Assembly (NCBI GenBank): GCA_002163135.1
Contig: MAAN01000035.1
Coordinates: 62,001-126,000, forward strand
Source: Alphaproteobacteria bacterium 46_93_T64
Lineage (GTDB): Bacteria; Pseudomonadota; Alphaproteobacteria; Sneathiellales; Sneathiellaceae
Length of the DNA: 64,000 nucleotides
Direction of reading: 5' to 3'
Shown: positions 3,227 to 29,088 of the stretch, piece by piece
How positions within the stretch are numbered: position 1 is the stretch's first letter
Layout: each line of letters begins with the position of its first letter
Translations under genes and position numbers: made by a program
Notes under the pieces: generated by a model
Databases searched by the model: none
What the model was told of the DNA's origin: nothing
What the model saw: the letters and a program-made list of their open reading frames with translations, nothing else

Positions 3227-4116
3227 GCCATCTCTTTGAAAATATTCAGAGAGCCAGTGATCGCACCAACAGTAATAAGGGCGCAACCGACGACAAGCGC
3301 CCAACTAAACGCCGTGGTTCCAAAGAACAGCAGCAGGATAGTCGACAGCAGCGGCGACACGTAGGATAGAACCCCCAGACCTTGAATATCTCCGCGTTTG
3401 ACACCTATATCCCATAAGAAAAAAGCAGCCCCCACGGGTCCTAAACCAAGCCCAACGACGGCAACCCACATACCCCATGTATCCGGTAACAAAGTTTCCT
3501 CAAAAAACAGATGACAGAGAAATGCCAGAACGGCAGTAACGCCACAAAAAATTCCCACAACATCGGTCGAAACATCCGCAAACTTTCGACTGAGAACAGA
3601 ATATCCGGACCAGATAAAGGCGCAGGCAAGCGCCGCTAAATACCCATTAGTATATTCAGAATTGATCGAGAAGGCTTCTCCTTTTGTGATCAACAATCCC
3701 GCCCCTATCAAGCTGACGACTGCCCCTAATATATGGAACCAAAAAAGCTTCTCTCCCGGTAATAGAGCAGAGAGAAGAACAATCAACAATGGCCATAGAT
3801 AGGCGATCAAACCGGCTTCTGCTGCCGGTGCCGATTTCAGGGCTAGAAAATAGAAAAAATGATATCCGAATAAACCCCCAACTCCGAGTAGCCATAGGGC
3901 CGGAGGAAGTTTCACGAACTTGCTGATTTTATCGCCAGCAATTATCCATTTTGCGAGTGCAATCGAAAAAGCGACGGTAAAACTCATGGCCGTCAGCTGA
4001 AACGGGGGAATATCACCTGTAAAGACGGTAAAAAGGGCAAGTAAGGCCCAAAGGAGAATTGCAGCAAATCCGCACAACGTCGCTTGCATTCTGGTCAATG
4101 GCATTCTTCTTTTCAT
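3211..4116 (-). CDS. DMT superfamily transporter (EamA domain)
   Basis: A 301-residue inner-membrane protein with about ten hydrophobic segments in two EamA repeats (residues about 10-140 and 160-290), the layout of drug/metabolite exporters. The last residues (EMARRKI) are basic. The start is supported by GAGGGATC just before the ATG. The substrate cannot be read from sequence; family members export amino acids, nucleosides or drugs. It lies downstream of, but separated by a terminator from, the convergently irrelevant pha genes, so it is probably its own unit. Confidence 0.85.
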   Translation of the reverse strand: MKRRMPLTRMQATLCGFAAILLWALLALFTVFTGDIPPFQLTAMSFTVAFSIALAKWIIAGDKISKFVKLPPALWLLGVGGLFGYHFFYFLALKSAPAAEAGLIAYLWPLLIVLLSALLPGEKLFWFHILGAVVSLIGAGLLITKGEAFSINSEYTNGYLAALACAFIWSGYSVLSRKFADVSTDVVGIFCGVTAVLAFLCHLFFEETLLPDTWGMWVAVVGLGLGPVGAAFFLWDIGVKRGDIQGLGVLSYVSPLLSTILLLFFGTTAFSWALVVGCALITVGAITGSLNIFKEMARRKI

Positions 4117-4185
4117 GATCCCTCGAGGTGATTACATGTGGCACATATGAGAGAACATATCTTGCCGCGGAGACACAGAAAAGCG

Positions 4186-4220
4186 AAAAGGCATGCGCCC
4201 AGGAAGGACGCATGCCTTTT
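4186..4220 (-). terminator. Terminator of the phaA-phaB unit
   Basis: A perfect 12-base stem, AAAAGGCATGCG paired with CGCATGCCTTTT, with an 11-base loop lies 27 bases past the phaB stop. Read on the minus strand, the stem ends in CCTTTTCGCTTTT, a U-rich tail typical of intrinsic termination. The A-run on the other arm also allows termination in the opposite direction. Confidence 0.75.
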
Positions 4221-4246
4221 CATAAACCGGTTTGACAGGAACCGAC

Positions 4247-4969
4247 TTAATACATGTGTTGGCCACCATTGATGGACAGTGTGGATCCGGTAACAAAACC
4301 CGCATCATCGGCTACTAGGAAACATACGCCGCGTGCAATTTCACTAGCTTGACCTAGTCGTCCAACCGGTATTTTCGCAACAATTTTTTCAAGAACAGCT
4401 TCAGGAACAGCTGCTACCATTTCAGTGTCAATGTAGCCCGGTGCAATCGCGTTGACAGTAATACCCTGCCCCGCACCTTCCTGCGCCATAGCTTTTGTAA
4501 ATCCGTGAATACCAGATTTTGCAGCGGCATAATTCACCTGACCATATTGGCCGGCCTGTCCATTGATAGATCCGATATTAACAACACGGCCAAATTTGGC
4601 CGCTCGCATATCTTCAATGGTTACCCGGCACATATTGAAGCAAGACCCAAGATTTGTATCAATAACCGACTGCCATTTTTTAGGATCCATGCGGTGCAAG
4701 GTCCCATCACGGGTAATACCGGCATTATTTACGACAATCTCAATAGGCCCTAAATCCTGCTTCACTTGCGCGACCCCAGCCATGCAAGCATCGTAATCAG
4801 AAACATCCCATTTATATGCACGAATACCTGTTTTTTCGGTGAATTCCTTCGCCTTGGCATCGTCGCCACCATATGCGGCTGCTACCGTATATCCTTTGTC
4901 ATTTAACATGATGGAAATGGCTTCACCAATTCCCCGTGTCCCGCCTGTAACAATAGCTACTCTTCCCAT
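4247..4969 (-). CDS. phaB: Acetoacetyl-CoA reductase
   Basis: A 240-residue short-chain dehydrogenase that reduces acetoacetyl-CoA to (R)-3-hydroxybutyryl-CoA with NADPH, the second step of polyhydroxybutyrate synthesis. GGTRGIG (residues 9-15) is the cofactor motif, NNAG follows the fourth strand, and Ser134, Tyr147 and Lys151 form the catalytic set. The C-terminus (TGSTLSINGGQHMY) is the usual PhaB ending. It begins 28 bases after phaA with AGGGAT upstream of the ATG, so the two are co-transcribed. Confidence 0.95.
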   Translation of the reverse strand: MGRVAIVTGGTRGIGEAISIMLNDKGYTVAAAYGGDDAKAKEFTEKTGIRAYKWDVSDYDACMAGVAQVKQDLGPIEIVVNNAGITRDGTLHRMDPKKWQSVIDTNLGSCFNMCRVTIEDMRAAKFGRVVNIGSINGQAGQYGQVNYAAAKSGIHGFTKAMAQEGAGQGITVNAIAPGYIDTEMVAAVPEAVLEKIVAKIPVGRLGQASEIARGVCFLVADDAGFVTGSTLSINGGQHMY

Positions 4970-4997
4970 GTTTTTTGATCCCTGATCTGAGGTTAGT

Positions 4998-6170
4998 TTA
5001 CCGCTCTACACACATCGCTATACCCATGCCACCACCGATACACAGAGTGGCAAGACCCTTCTTCGCGTCCCGTTTTTGCATCTCATGCAACAACGTTACA
5101 AGAATTCTTGCGCCTGACGCGCCAATAGGATGGCCAATGGCAATTGCGCCGCCATTGACATTCACTTTATCTGTGTCCCATCCAAGTTCTTTGTTCACCG
5201 CGCAAGCTTGCGCAGCGAATGCTTCGTTGGCTTCAACCAAATCCAGATCGTCTGTCGTCCAACCCGCTTTTTCTAGGGCAAGGCGACTGGCCGGAATTGG
5301 ACCAGAGCCCATGATGGAAGGGTCAACACCTACTTGCGCCCAAGAAACAACGCGCGCAAGTGGCTTAAGACCGCGTTTTTCAGCATCTTCTGCAGACATC
5401 ATGACAACCGCTGCGGCTCCGTCATTAATGCCAGAGGCATTACCAGCTGTTACGCTACCACCTTCTTTTTGAAACGCAGTACGCAGACCCGACAATTTTT
5501 CAAATGTGGATCCACCCCGGATATATTCATCGTCACTAACAACCGTCTCCCCTTTACGGGTTTTAATTGTTACCGGTACGATTTCGTCCTTAAACCGACC
5601 TTCTGCCTGTGCAGTTGCGGCTTTTGCTTGTGAAGCTGCTGCAAATTTATCCTGCTGCTCTCTTGTGATTTGCCATTTGGCCGCAACATTCTCGGCTGTG
5701 TTACCCATGTGGTAACCATAGAAAGCGTCAATCAAGCCGTCTTTGAGCATCGTGTCTGTAAACTCCAGACCGCCCATTTTTTGACCATCGCGTAAATGTG
5801 CGCAATGTGGGGCTTGGCTCATGCTTTCCTGACCGCCTGCGACAACCACGCTGCTGTCACCGTTCAAAACCGCTTGAAACCCAAGTGCGACGGCCCGAAG
5901 ACCTGATCCACAAAGCTGATTTACACCCCATGCAGGAACTTCCACCGGAAGGTCTGCGCCAATGGCTGCCTGACGTGCAGGATTCTGTCCCTCGCCTGCG
6001 GTCAGAATTTGCCCAAGGATCACTTCGGACACATCTGAACCTTCCATCTTGGAGCGGTTTAAAGCTTCCCGGATCACAATTTCACCCAATTTGTGGGCAG
6101 GAAGAGCAGACAGACCACCGTTAAACGAGCCAACCGGTGTGCGTACTGCACTTGTAATGACAACTTCCAT
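4998..6170 (-). CDS. phaA: Acetyl-CoA C-acetyltransferase (beta-ketothiolase)
   Basis: A 390-residue thiolase that condenses two acetyl-CoA into acetoacetyl-CoA, the entry step of polyhydroxybutyrate synthesis; it can also run in the breakdown direction. The nucleophilic Cys is at 87 (NQLCGSG), with His347 (GHPIGASG) and Cys377 (CIGGGMG) completing the active site; length matches biosynthetic thiolases. AGAGG stands 6 bases ahead of the ATG. A TGCA-rich region just upstream (6280-6308) may be a PhaR operator. Confidence 0.96.
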
Positions 6171-23767: not shown

Positions 23768-24547
23768 ATGACTTGCATGGCAAAATTTGGCGTAAAACTA
23801 TGGGGGGCAACTCTCTTCCTGTCGTTGATTGCCTATGCTTTACCTGCTTCAACGAAGGCCTATGCGCGGGATGAAGCACGCGAATACAAAGCTTGCATCA
23901 AGTTGACCAAACGTGAGCCAGAATTTGCTTTTGAATCCGCCCTCACCTGGCGCGATCAAGGGGGCGGATTTCCTGCCCGTCATTGTGCAGCCCTTGCACT
24001 GATCGCTATGAAAAAATACCATATCGCTGCCCCACGCCTTGAAAAACTAGCAGAAGAAATGCAGACAGCAGGCCTTGATCTTGTTGTTCCGATCTTAAGC
24101 CAAGCCGCAAACACGTGGTTGCTTGCTCAAGATTTTAGCCGTGCAAATGCTGTCGCGAGTGCCGCCCTTGAGATGGAGCCGGGTAACATTGAACTACTCA
24201 TTGATCGCAGCCGAATTCTGGCTGCTGCCGAAAACTATCAAGAAGCATTTAACGATCTGGATCTCGTGCTACGTCTTGATCCTACCAGATCCGATGCCTT
24301 AGCTTTTCGTGCCGCAGCCTGGCGACAACTTGGGAACAACAAACGTGCCATGGAAGATGCAGACCTCTCGCTTTCTCTACAGCCTGACCTCATTGATGCT
24401 TTGATTGAACGTGGGATCCTGCATAGACTTGCTGGAAATCGAGAAAAAGCACAACAAGATTGGATGAAAGTGCTTGAGCTTTCACCTAATAGCCCCGCAG
24501 GTGAGATCGCACGTAAGAACATAGAAAAGCTGGAATTTAGCGACTAG
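23768..24547 (+). CDS. Exported TPR-repeat protein
   Basis: A 259-residue protein with a hydrophobic signal (residues about 10-32, ending near STKAYARD) and four helical repeats from about 120 on; the clearest TPRs are at NIELLIDRSRILAAAENYQEA, DALAFRAAAWRQLGNNKRAM and DALIERGILHRLAGNREKAQ. It probably works in the periplasm as a scaffold. The ATG at 23768 follows a GTG at 23765; the ATG at 23777 is also possible. Its last 11 bases overlap the convergent cyclase-TPR gene. A decayed relative lies at 26479-26596. Confidence 0.82.
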   Translation: MTCMAKFGVKLWGATLFLSLIAYALPASTKAYARDEAREYKACIKLTKREPEFAFESALTWRDQGGGFPARHCAALALIAMKKYHIAAPRLEKLAEEMQTAGLDLVVPILSQAANTWLLAQDFSRANAVASAALEMEPGNIELLIDRSRILAAAENYQEAFNDLDLVLRLDPTRSDALAFRAAAWRQLGNNKRAMEDADLSLSLQPDLIDALIERGILHRLAGNREKAQQDWMKVLELSPNSPAGEIARKNIEKLEFSD

Positions 24548-26306
24548 TTTGAGGCTCTAATTCAGGCAATCCTGCATTTATCAAACCTTGACGATGATGA
24601 TCCATATCGCTGCTATGTTTGTAATGCAAAGTCTCCATGTAATCTGTTACCGTAAATTCTGGAGATAGCTTCAAAACCGCAGCAACATGCCCTCCCGCAG
24701 CAACATTATCCCCTAGATAAGAATAGCCGGCAGCTAAAAAAGCGTGATGAGTGAAGTCAGGTGCTGATAGTTTCCTGAATGAAGCAACTGATTCTTCATA
24801 GCGATGGGCCACGAATTGAGCTCTTCCTAAATGGTTCCAAAAACGTTCTGGAAAATAGGGATTAAGACGCATGGCTTTAAGAATCCAGTTTATTCCGTCC
24901 TCCGCTTGGCCGAGCCAGGAAAGCAACTCCCCCTGTTGAACCACGATAAGATCGTCGTTCGGATTAAGTGCTAGTGCACGGTTCTGATGATAAAGACACT
25001 GATCAAAATCGCCATGTGCCAAACTTGTTGCTGCCAAAATTCTATGAACATCACTGTCGTCATCATCAAATCTGCGAGCCATCTCCAATTCCGCGAGCAC
25101 TTCGTCCCATGTGGCATCACGATCATCACACCAGTCATGCACCCAACTTTGCCCCAACACACATGCACGCCAAGCATGAGCATGGGCGTATGTCGGATCA
25201 ATTTTAATGGCGCGATCCAGCATTTCCATCGCTTGACGATTAGCTTCCCGATTAGATCTGTGATGAAGTGTTTTTCCGGTTAGCACGCATTCATATGCCG
25301 CCAAATTTTCTGGCCGTTTGCGGTGAGCCCGTTCCTGACTGACGGCTTCAACGCGAGACGGCAAGGTCGCGACAATGGCCGTAGTGACTTCATCCTGTAT
25401 AGCAAAGATATCTTCGAGATCCCGATCAAATTTTTCAGCCCAGATATGTTTGTCCGTTTCTGCATCGATTAATTGCACAGTGATGCGAACCCGATTTCCA
25501 ACCTTTCGAACACTGCCCTCCAACGCATAGCGGGCTCCAAGTTCACGGGCCACGGTGGGAACACTGACCGTTTTCCCCTTATAGGCAAATGAGGACGTGC
25601 GAGAGATCACTTCTAAACCGCGAAACCTAGATAACTGCGTTAAAATATCCTCTGTTAGGCCATCAGCGAAAAACTCCTGTTCAGGATCGCCACTCATATT
25701 AACCAGAGGGAGCACAGCAATTACCGGTTTCTCTGCATCGGGATCTTTTGGAGCCCCATAAGTTTCCGTTCGCCGATTTTCCAACGAAACACTATAGGCC
25801 TGAATAGGCCGATCTATGTTTTTCAGAGTTAATAGTCCAAGGTCGATAAATTCCAGATCAACCTTTCCTTCCAATTGATCATGCACGCTACGGGATATAC
25901 AAATGCCGCCGGTTTCAGCTTGGCTTTCAAGTCTGGCCGCTATGTTCACGCCATCCCCAAAAATATCATCCTCATCTATAATTATGTCCCCAAGATTTAT
26001 ACCGATACGAAACTCAATGCGCCTATCTGAAGGAACATCTGTGTTGCGTTTTGCCATTCGTTTCTGAATTTCTACTGCGGATGAGACAGCATCTGTAACG
26101 CTGTTAAATTCCACCAACAACCCGTCCCCGGTAGATTTTATAATGTGGCCGTTATTCTTAAGGATGCATGGGTCTATTAATTCTATGCGATGGGTTTTAA
26201 GTCGCGCTAACGTTCCCGTTTCATCCAGCCCCATCAAGCGGCTAAACCCAACCATATCTGTCGCGAAAACGGCAGCAAGTCTACGAACGGTCCCCAAATC
26301 TTCCAT
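24537..26306 (-). CDS. Class III adenylate cyclase with TolB-like and TPR domains
   Basis: A 589-residue protein. Residues about 8-175 are a class III cyclase catalytic domain with metal-binding Asp in FATDMVGFSR and KSTGDGLLVEF, a Lys before STGDG and GDGVNIAARLE for the transition state. Residues about 190-325 resemble the FlgO/TolB N-terminal fold (IAVLPLVNMSGDPEQEFFADGL), and the rest is TPR. This design is common in Rhizobiales and Rhodospirillales. It should make cAMP in the cytoplasm. The ATG at 26306 follows GGGA; the codon before it is TTG, also readable as a start. Confidence 0.9.
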   Translation of the reverse strand: MEDLGTVRRLAAVFATDMVGFSRLMGLDETGTLARLKTHRIELIDPCILKNNGHIIKSTGDGLLVEFNSVTDAVSSAVEIQKRMAKRNTDVPSDRRIEFRIGINLGDIIIDEDDIFGDGVNIAARLESQAETGGICISRSVHDQLEGKVDLEFIDLGLLTLKNIDRPIQAYSVSLENRRTETYGAPKDPDAEKPVIAVLPLVNMSGDPEQEFFADGLTEDILTQLSRFRGLEVISRTSSFAYKGKTVSVPTVARELGARYALEGSVRKVGNRVRITVQLIDAETDKHIWAEKFDRDLEDIFAIQDEVTTAIVATLPSRVEAVSQERAHRKRPENLAAYECVLTGKTLHHRSNREANRQAMEMLDRAIKIDPTYAHAHAWRACVLGQSWVHDWCDDRDATWDEVLAELEMARRFDDDDSDVHRILAATSLAHGDFDQCLYHQNRALALNPNDDLIVVQQGELLSWLGQAEDGINWILKAMRLNPYFPERFWNHLGRAQFVAHRYEESVASFRKLSAPDFTHHAFLAAGYSYLGDNVAAGGHVAAVLKLSPEFTVTDYMETLHYKHSSDMDHHRQGLINAGLPELEPQTSR

Positions 26307-26478
26307 CAATCATTTTCCCTGTATATGAAGGTGTAACCCCTCCTACAAAGCGTTTATCATCCGCTCACTCCATAAACATGTGGCACAGTTTACTAAAAAA
26401 CAGGGTCATCGGAATTTAACGCGTTGGGGAATGACAATTTCTTTAAAACTATTTAGGAAAATAAAGGAATTAGGGGAT

Positions 26479-26702: not shown

Positions 26703-26746
26703 AAAAAAAAGAAAATCGTTGCAACCCGTCAGTCGCAACGATTTTC
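26703..26746 (-). terminator. Strong intrinsic terminator downstream of the NCS1 permease gene
   Basis: GAAAATCGTTGC and GCAACGATTTTC form a perfect 12-base stem with a 12-base loop; on the minus strand it is followed by eight T. It lies about 70 bases past the permease stop. Confidence 0.85.
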
Positions 26747-26789: not shown

Positions 26790-26813
26790 ATCGAATGAGC
26801 AAGCTCATTCGAT
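26790..26813. repeat. 24-base near-perfect palindrome at the permease 3' end
   Basis: ATCGAATGAGC and GCTCATTCGAT are perfect 11-base arms around AA, immediately after the permease stop codon. With no T-run it is not a classical terminator; it may stabilise the 3' end of the transcript or bind a protein. Confidence 0.6.
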
Positions 26814-26815
26814 TT

Positions 26816-28272
26816 CTACTTTTTCATGATCATGTAATAAATTGCAGCACCAAGCGCAGCCCCTATAACCCAGGCAAAGCCTGAGAGAGCTTCAAGGGCT
26901 GGAACCCATACCGTCGCCACTGAAAAAATGCCGGTTAAAGCAAACGCGAACATTGCTTTTTTATTCCAGCCATTGTCATAGAAGTACTCACCAGAAGGAT
27001 CGGCCGAAAACAGGGCTTGTATATCCAGTTTTCCATTTTTAATCATGTAATAGTCAACAATCATGATGCCGTATACAGGAGCAAGAATGGCACCCAATGT
27101 GTTCACAAAGTTGAAAATACCGATTTGACTAATCGCTGATACCCAGAGGCCGCCAACAATCAAGGCAAATCCTGATGTAATTAGGCCCCCGATGCGGAAG
27201 TTGATTTTACTTGGCATGAGGTTAGCCAAGTCATATGCAGGCGGGATAAACTTTGCCACAAGATTGATCCCAACGGTTGCGGCAAAAAACATAAGGGCGG
27301 CTAAGATTGTCAACGGTAGCGAGTCAACACGTTCAATAATGTCAGTTGGGTTTGTCAGGGTTTCCCCCCATATTACAACGGTTCCCGCTGTAACAATCAA
27401 CGCAATTAGCGAGAAAAAGGCGATATTTAAAGGAAGGCCGACTAAATTGCCTTTCTTCATGTCATCTTGCGATTTTACAAAACGTGAAAAGTCACCGTAA
27501 TTGATAACGACAGCCGCAAAATATGCGATCATTGTTCCAACAATTGCAACAAATGCTGAGAAGGATCCACCTTCATAACTGCCTGTTCCTTTAAAGATAT
27601 TGCCGATCTCAGAAAACAGGCCACTTCCAGCTTTCATCCAGATCACGCCGGCAAGAATGATCATCACTATGTACACAAAAGGTCCCGCAAAATTCAAAAA
27701 TTTCGTGATCCATTCTATACCATTCCAAAAAAGCCAGATTTGAAAGGCCCATACGATCAAGAAGGAAACCCAGGAAATCGCATCCATTCCCAAGAATTCA
27801 GCACCTGAACCTGTACTTCCAATAAGAGAGTTCAAGAGAAGTGAAACCGCTGTTGATGCGAAATAAGTTTGCGCACCGTACCAGAAGATCGCAACGATCG
27901 CTCTGACAATTGCCGGGAAATTGGCTCCTCGAATTCCCATACTTGCACGAGCCATAACGGGAAACGGAATTCCATATTCAACACTGGGCTTGCCTATGAT
28001 ATTTACAAGCCACATAACAAAAAAAACCAGCAACTAAAATTGCGGCAAAAACAGTCCAGCCACTTAAGCCGTATGTAATAAATAATGAGGCCGCCAAAGT
28101 ATAACCAAACAGACTTTGAACATCATTTGCCCAAACGTTAAATATTTCAAACCATCCCCAGGTTCTATTTTTTTTTGAGAATTGGAGCGAGATCTTCGTT
28201 ATATAAACTCGGATCACGTTCCTTGATTACTAAATCAAGATCATTTGTTTCTATTTTTTTATTTTCATTCAT
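26816..28272 (-). pseudogene. NCS1-family nucleobase/hydantoin permease gene with two frameshifts
   Basis: Three adjoining frames together give one NCS1 permease of 484 residues: the N-terminus from the ATG at 28272 (ending DLAPILKK), a middle part (NRTWGWFEIFNVWANDVQ through LVAGFF), and the C-terminal 400 residues (VMWLVNIIGKPSVEYGIPFP onward) with the rest of about twelve membrane segments. The breaks fall in a run of nine T (28168-28176, plus strand) and a run of eight A (28019-28026); each run is one base too long. Removing one from each restores the frame exactly (1455 bases). NCS1 carriers take up cytosine, allantoin, hydantoins or similar with Na+ or H+. Either a recent pseudogene, slipped-strand switching, or sequencing error. 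Confidence 0.85.
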
Positions 28273-28335
28273 CCATTCGGTCCCCTGTACTTTGAACGAC
28301 GACATACTCACCGGCAATAACTAAAACTGCTTGAT

Positions 28336-28500
28336 CAAAAAAGCGTGCATATATCCAGAAACCTGCCCCAACAGAGCCTCCAAAATATTATACTTTGTTA
28401 TTGTGACTTTCCTTTTCCGTACATTTTTTTATATTTGATTGAAATTTTCGCGTGGTTAACAATAATCTCAATACACATAGCGTGCAAAAAAGCGTGCATA
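28336..28500. repeat. Repeated AGCGTGCA motifs upstream of the recombinase-like gene
   Basis: CAAAAAAGCGTGCATA occurs identically at 28336-28351 and 28485-28500. A third AGCGTGCA (28479-28486) abuts the second copy. The last copy ends 33 bases before the recombinase-like start. The 261-base gap between the permease and this gene is strongly AT-rich and holds nothing else that I can identify. Binding sites for the adjacent protein (res-like or operator) are a reasonable guess. Confidence 0.5.
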
Positions 28501-28533
28501 AGTCAATATTTTTTTGCAATAGAGGTTAGTAAA

Positions 28534-29088
28534 ATGAAAATTGGCTATGCTCGAGTATCCACGAAATGGTACCAAAGCGAGCTACAAATCACAGAATTGG
28601 AAAAGCAAGGCTGTGATAAGGTCTGGTGCGAAACACTAACCGATGATCAAAACTCAAACCATGGATTGAAGGACTTGCTCGACCAGATTTCGGCGGGTGA
28701 TACTGTGATTGCAACCAGACTTACCTCTATTGCTCATTCCTCAGCGGAATTTCTTTACTTACTTGAGAAAATTCAAGAAAAGGGAGCTTTCTTTCGGTCC
28801 CTCGCTGAACCATGGGTAAACACCAAAGAGCGTGGCGGCGATCAAATAATAGAATCCATTCGGGGTATGATTAATTTTGAAATGACACTTGCCTCGATGG
28901 AAAATAAACGTGAGTTCAATCGCCCTCAGATTTTTGGTGTTAGTCTTGGACGCCCACGCAAACTAACGGAACAGCAGAAAAATGAAGCAATGTCACTTTT
29001 GAGAGTTGGGAAATCTGCCGCAGAAATCGGAAGATTGCTTGGCGTCAGCCGCAGCACAATATCTCGTTTAAAAAACCTTCTACGCTAA
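28534..29088 (+). CDS. Serine recombinase (resolvase)-like protein with lost catalytic residues
   Basis: A 184-residue protein with the resolvase N-terminal fold and a C-terminal Hin-like helix-turn-helix (residues about 142-181: LTEQQKNEAMSLL...GVSRSTISRLK). GYARVST keeps Arg7 and the nucleophile Ser9. However, the block usually reading RLDRLARS is RLTSIAHS (62-69), losing two active-site Arg (at 65 and 68) and the Asp; the Arg usually near residue 42 is Asn-His; and the EFERxxIxER block is altered (NFEMTLASMENKREF). DNA binding looks intact, strand exchange doubtful. The ATG at 28534 has AGAGG 8 bases upstream; the frame is open back to 28345 but that part is not protein-like. A regulator or domesticated invertase is likely. 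Confidence 0.8.
   Translation: MKIGYARVSTKWYQSELQITELEKQGCDKVWCETLTDDQNSNHGLKDLLDQISAGDTVIATRLTSIAHSSAEFLYLLEKIQEKGAFFRSLAEPWVNTKERGGDQIIESIRGMINFEMTLASMENKREFNRPQIFGVSLGRPRKLTEQQKNEAMSLLRVGKSAAEIGRLLGVSRSTISRLKNLLR

Follow-up and report, generated by a model that had tools for sequence, protein, structure and literature searches.

Probable recent inactivation of an NCS1 permease gene by two homopolymer expansions beside an intact resolvase-like gene

Introduction

In the genome of Alphaproteobacteria bacterium 46_93_T64 (contig MAAN01000035.1), a gene for an NCS1-family nucleobase/allantoin-type permease is interrupted by two +1 frameshifts. The locus raises the question of whether the permease has been lost, can be switched on again, or has simply been misread. 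The original prediction left three readings side by side, namely a very young pseudogene, a slipped-strand on/off switch, or a sequence error. Here, the 64,000-nucleotide stretch that carries the gene (referred to as the window, to which all positions refer) was analysed together with relatives of the permease and of its neighbours. The results suggested that the locus is probably a horizontally acquired two-gene module, made up of the permease and a resolvase-derived regulator, in which the permease has been inactivated very recently.

Results

The permease gene lies on the minus strand at 26816-28272, and its coding sequence is spread over three frames. By arithmetic, this span of 1457 nt equals 484 codons, a stop codon and two surplus bases. 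The first frame break is an A9 run (T9 on the plus strand) at 28168-28176, with a stop immediately following it, and the second is a T8 run (A8 on the plus strand) at 28019-28026; the predicted positions of both runs were exact. A 405-aa open reading frame at 26816-28033 matched the family profile PF02133 over profile positions 53-440 (5.3e-69, 233.6 bits), and a piece in a different frame, at 27981-28166, matched profile positions 7-58 (2.4e-6, 27.1 bits), so that both pieces were above the curated cut-off of 23.5 bits. Matches to the NCBIfam NCS1/allantoin permease models were under the curated cut-offs of those models. In the PDB, the 405-aa piece matched the Mhp1 hydantoin permease (2jln, 1.5e-17, residues 15-370 aligned). 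By profile the gene thus belongs to the NCS1 family, with its reading frame broken twice.

DNA alignment with five relatives showed that each run is one base longer here than in 5/5 of them, and that the codons at both positions consist of mixed bases in these relatives and are not homopolymeric. The breaks are therefore run-length changes against intact orthologues, as in a slippage pseudogene. That removal of one base per run would restore a single NCS1 permease of 484 residues was borne out by the PF02133 matches in two frames, by the lack of both bases in 5/5 relatives, and by the ten close relatives (L014-L023), in which the permease is open across 474-484 codons. The terminator and palindrome described after the gene were also present, as a terminator-like hairpin with a T tail at 26711-26746 (minus strand) and a perfect 11-bp inverted repeat just past the stop at 26790-26813, although the number of terminator-like sites around the permease 3' side was at shuffle level (3 found versus 3.0 expected).

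A transporter gene that is pristine except for a pair of homopolymer runs close to its 5' end is what slipped-strand phase variation would look like, the runs acting as contingency tracts that toggle the permease. However, such tracts would be expected to be conserved among relatives, and neither was found in the five aligned ones, where mixed-base codons stand instead. The gene would also be on only if both tracts shortened together, and run lengths of this kind are ordinary for the genome, with 56 A/T runs of 8 and 7 runs of 9 in the sample scanned below. The predicted on/off switch was thus not upheld, and we regard phase variation as highly unlikely.

Permease relatives were found at 19 loci when one genome per species was searched, for 84,980 species. 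One of these loci (L032) is a contig-end fragment and was left out of the open-frame check; in the other 18, the frame was open in 17. The sole exception is L024, a Hyphomicrobiales metagenome-assembled genome, in which the pair (3496-5139) is decayed: the permease has a stop inside the gene and lacks stretches of it, and the resolvase homologue is split. This is a second, independent and clear decay of the same pair, showing that the permease/resolvase pair can be lost. Within the genus, the permease is present in 3/24 genomes, that is, this genome, G007 (91% identity) and G013 (84%).

Apart from the two breaks, the permease resembles its intact relatives in constraint. It is changed at 2/246 columns that are invariant among the ten relatives, whereas leave-one-out counts for the other permeases ranged from 0 to 8 changes. 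Against its nearest relative, pN was 0.062 and pS 0.743, with synonymous sites saturated. With three outgroups, this genome's branch and the sister branch each received 7 amino-acid changes; when seven outgroups were used, the counts became 4 versus 1, a slight lean towards this genome in small numbers. Selection thus acted on the permease up to very recent times, if it does not act still. On these counts a long-standing pseudogene was rejected, and they support the very young pseudogene of the original prediction.

A frame-broken gene still under selection could also be one that is rescued in expression, with RNA polymerase slipping at both runs and producing enough in-frame mRNA for the gene to remain functional. 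Slippage is documented for stretches of nine A or T in the available text of PMC1088944. According to the accessible part of PMC3017870, insect endosymbionts have genes whose frame is broken but which show no decay, and slippage may rescue such genes in Blochmannia. However, when polymerase slips at A/T runs in Escherichia coli and Buchnera, the usual outcome is one added base, as far as the text available for PMC5574713 goes. Both runs here are one base too long to begin with, so that a loss or a double gain would be needed at both runs in the same transcript, and the T run is just eight long. Rescue by transcriptional slippage is thus extremely unlikely.

Whether homopolymer runs are broken elsewhere was examined in a sample of 782,866 of the 4,002,346 assembly bases, the 64-kb window included. 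The sample holds 274 A/T runs of at least 7, of which 158 lie inside uninterrupted predicted genes, and the frame-change scan recovered 96/158 simulated insertions. It raised 24 flags, 15 inside predicted genes and nine outside, and the nine outside were the ones assessed. Two of these were the permease sites; the other seven were put down to gene starts, gene junctions or intergenic sequence, after a close look for L043 and L088 8223 and from translations alone for the rest. Flags L034 7376, L043 12392 and L088 8223, considered as further breaks, were rejected as gene junctions or intergenic sites. At A/T runs of at least 7, no second convincing break was found in the 782,866 bases at this sensitivity, and the only two clear breaks within the window were the permease sites, in agreement with the claim that no other gene there is broken likewise. 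A systematic homopolymer error across the assembly is thus unlikely.

The same scan bears on an assembly or sequencing error at the locus itself, by which each run would truly be one base shorter and the permease intact. Each break adds a single base to a homopolymer, the remaining permease sequence is constrained like that of intact relatives, and the regulator gene and candidate operator described below are intact, all of which would fit an error. Yet errors would then be expected at other runs of at least 7, and the 158 coding runs lie in uninterrupted predicted genes, with no second convincing case in the 782,866 bases at a sensitivity of 96/158; two errors in one gene are also improbable unless local coverage is poor. 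Taken together, we consider a local error unlikely, though with an appreciable chance.

Divergent from the permease lies a gene at 28534-29088 (plus strand) for a small serine-resolvase homologue of 184 aa with a C-terminal helix-turn-helix, recognised from domain profiles, alignment and predicted fold and presumed to be a regulator. Neither this neighbour nor the repeats in the region between the two genes had been part of the original prediction. A resolvase homologue adjoins the permease in 11/19 loci, which are all those with permease identity of at least 78% (L014-L024), and was not detected at the other 8/19, three of which have short flanks. With the exception of G007, the outer genes vary among the loci of the pair. 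PF00239 and HTH_38 were each found in 11/11 resolvase-like members, giving the serine-recombinase architecture of a resolvase domain followed by a C-terminal helix-turn-helix. The predicted fold of the neighbour had a mean pLDDT of 79.3, with Tn3 and gamma-delta resolvase as top Foldseek matches.

The catalytic residues of gamma-delta resolvase are S10, R8, D67, R68 and R71. Alignment to that protein showed that S10 is kept in 10/11 members and R8 in 11/11, whereas D67 is present in 0/11, R68 in 0/11 and R71 in 4/11, so the catalytic set is incomplete throughout. In 12/12 ordinary homologues compared, the L/I-D-R-L motif is intact and so is the second arginine. An active recombinase was rejected as the likelier reading of the neighbour, given that D67 and R68 are missing from 11/11 members; as the would-be nucleophile serine and R8 are largely kept, some residual chemistry is possible. 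In a profile search of 385 genomes of the class with E up to 1e-35, there were 6 matches, this genome at 322 bits and five others at 125-140 bits. Since these five are weaker and keep the catalytic motif, the degenerate resolvase clade looks narrow.

The two divergent genes have the intergenic region 28273-28533 in common. It contains a tandem direct repeat, TGCACG-N6-TGCACG, at about 28482-28499 (minus strand), which is presumed to be an operator, and a further repeat copy nearer the permease start at 28336-28351, 16 nt identical to 28485-28500 and 149 bp apart from it. With at most one mismatch and in a single orientation, the tandem was found in 11/11 intergenic regions (this genome and L014-L023), several of which have two to four TGCACG copies at 12-bp steps. 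It was absent upstream of unlinked permeases (0/7 controls), and 1/2000 shuffled regions had a match. A TTGAC stands a few bases ahead of the first repeat in most alphaproteobacterial loci. In this genome, the exact tandem occurs once, at the permease locus; the one-mismatch form has 22 further sites, which is about control level (23 in all versus 16 in the reversed control). Repeats between divergent genes are a feature of TnpR-type control, and by analogy the neighbour would have been co-opted from a resolvase into a TnpR-like repressor acting on the permease.

As for the origin of the pair, a TPR gene lies directly beside comM, with the pair absent, in 15/22 comM loci of the genus (this genome being among the 22). 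In this genome and in G007, the pair stands between comM and the TPR gene, and at the other five loci there is a different gene, a contig end, or no TPR gene in the flank. The GC content of the permease is 42% versus 52% for comM, in a genome of about 47%. With the empty comM-TPR site in relatives, this difference fits a single insertion of the pair in the ancestor of this genome and G007. A mobile plasmid origin was rejected, as no close copy of either gene was among the plasmid matches listed: in tblastn searches of 72,556 plasmid records, the permease reached at most 66% among the matches listed (5 records at 60-80% and 222 below 60%), and the resolvase homologue stayed below 60% in all matches listed (up to 5000 records), with a best of about 39% among them.

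Other features of the comM flank were also seen. In this genome, the stretch from the permease to the TPR gene contains an adenylate/guanylate cyclase gene with TPRs (24537-26309), which G007 lacks at this place; in G005 (L070), the same side of comM has a distant relative of the cyclase (34%). Because of these two cyclases, the comM-side site may receive insertions repeatedly. In G015 (L071, L072), the comM matches are about 73 kb apart, with the first and second halves separate, so that the gene is split or rearranged.

Discussion

All these results suggested that the permease is very probably a recent loss-of-function pseudogene. In the mechanism we propose, two replication-slippage insertions, one in the A run and one in the T run 150 bp apart, would have broken the gene. 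What would be left is an N-terminal stub that stops immediately behind the A run, then a brief stretch in a second frame, and finally a 405-codon piece from which the profile's N-terminal part is missing. We infer that the breaks are real in the living genome and that the permease is non-functional, and the second break may have been a neutral hit after the first. For two hits to precede any other visible decay, slippage would have to be fast at both runs, or the sequence would have to be a local artefact. With two homopolymer expansions as the only breaks and the regulator still present, the loss would be placed in the present; for annotators, the locus calls for a check of the reads before the permease is called either intact or dead.

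On the side of the regulator, a resolvase homologue that has given up recombination would occupy the TGCACG repeats and keep the permease, and perhaps its own gene, repressed until relieved by a signal that could be the permease substrate. Once the permease is lost, the regulator would be left without a target. More broadly, a resolvase lineage without recombination may serve as an autogenously placed repressor dedicated to a single NCS1 permease, with the pair and its TGCACG operator array moving as a unit between alphaproteobacteria and Veronia, which we take to be a gammaproteobacterium; here the target would just have been lost and the regulator and operator left intact, making a newly orphaned regulator. 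For this wider proposal, we see the case for and against as evenly poised. A search of largely non-subscription literature on resolvase-like repressors or the NCS1-resolvase pair gave no paper that we recognised as describing the pair. If a resolvase has indeed turned repressor, the locus would offer a compact case, with about ten intact relatives and a short conserved operator, and the shift from DNA-cutting enzyme to transcription factor would be directly testable.

Compared with known systems, the gene resembles NCS1 permeases such as Mhp1 in that the family profile covers nearly its whole length in two pieces, and it differs in being frame-broken and in scoring under the cut-offs of the allantoin/NCS1 models. 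It shares with the homopolymer-frameshift genes of Blochmannia and Buchnera, as the available text of PMC3017870 describes them, breaks confined to A/T runs and an otherwise complete lack of decay; unlike those extremely AT-rich genomes, this one has about 47% GC, and its gene is broken twice.

For the neighbour, the nearest comparison is Tn3 TnpR, which in the accessible part of PMC7157771 binds sites between the divergent tnpR and tnpA and represses both. The resolvase fold, the divergent neighbour and the short repeats in a common promoter region are alike, whereas TnpR belongs to a transposon and has its catalytic residues intact; here, catalytic residues have been lost, and the divergent gene encodes a permease. 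A parallel from another family is MrpR, the repressor of prophage SPbeta, which the available text of PMC10516654 presents as a tyrosine-recombinase fold that represses transcription without recombination. Both proteins would thus combine a recombinase fold, lost recombination and repression of transcription, the last being presumed for the neighbour; MrpR, however, belongs to the tyrosine and not the serine family, and it controls a prophage rather than a transporter.
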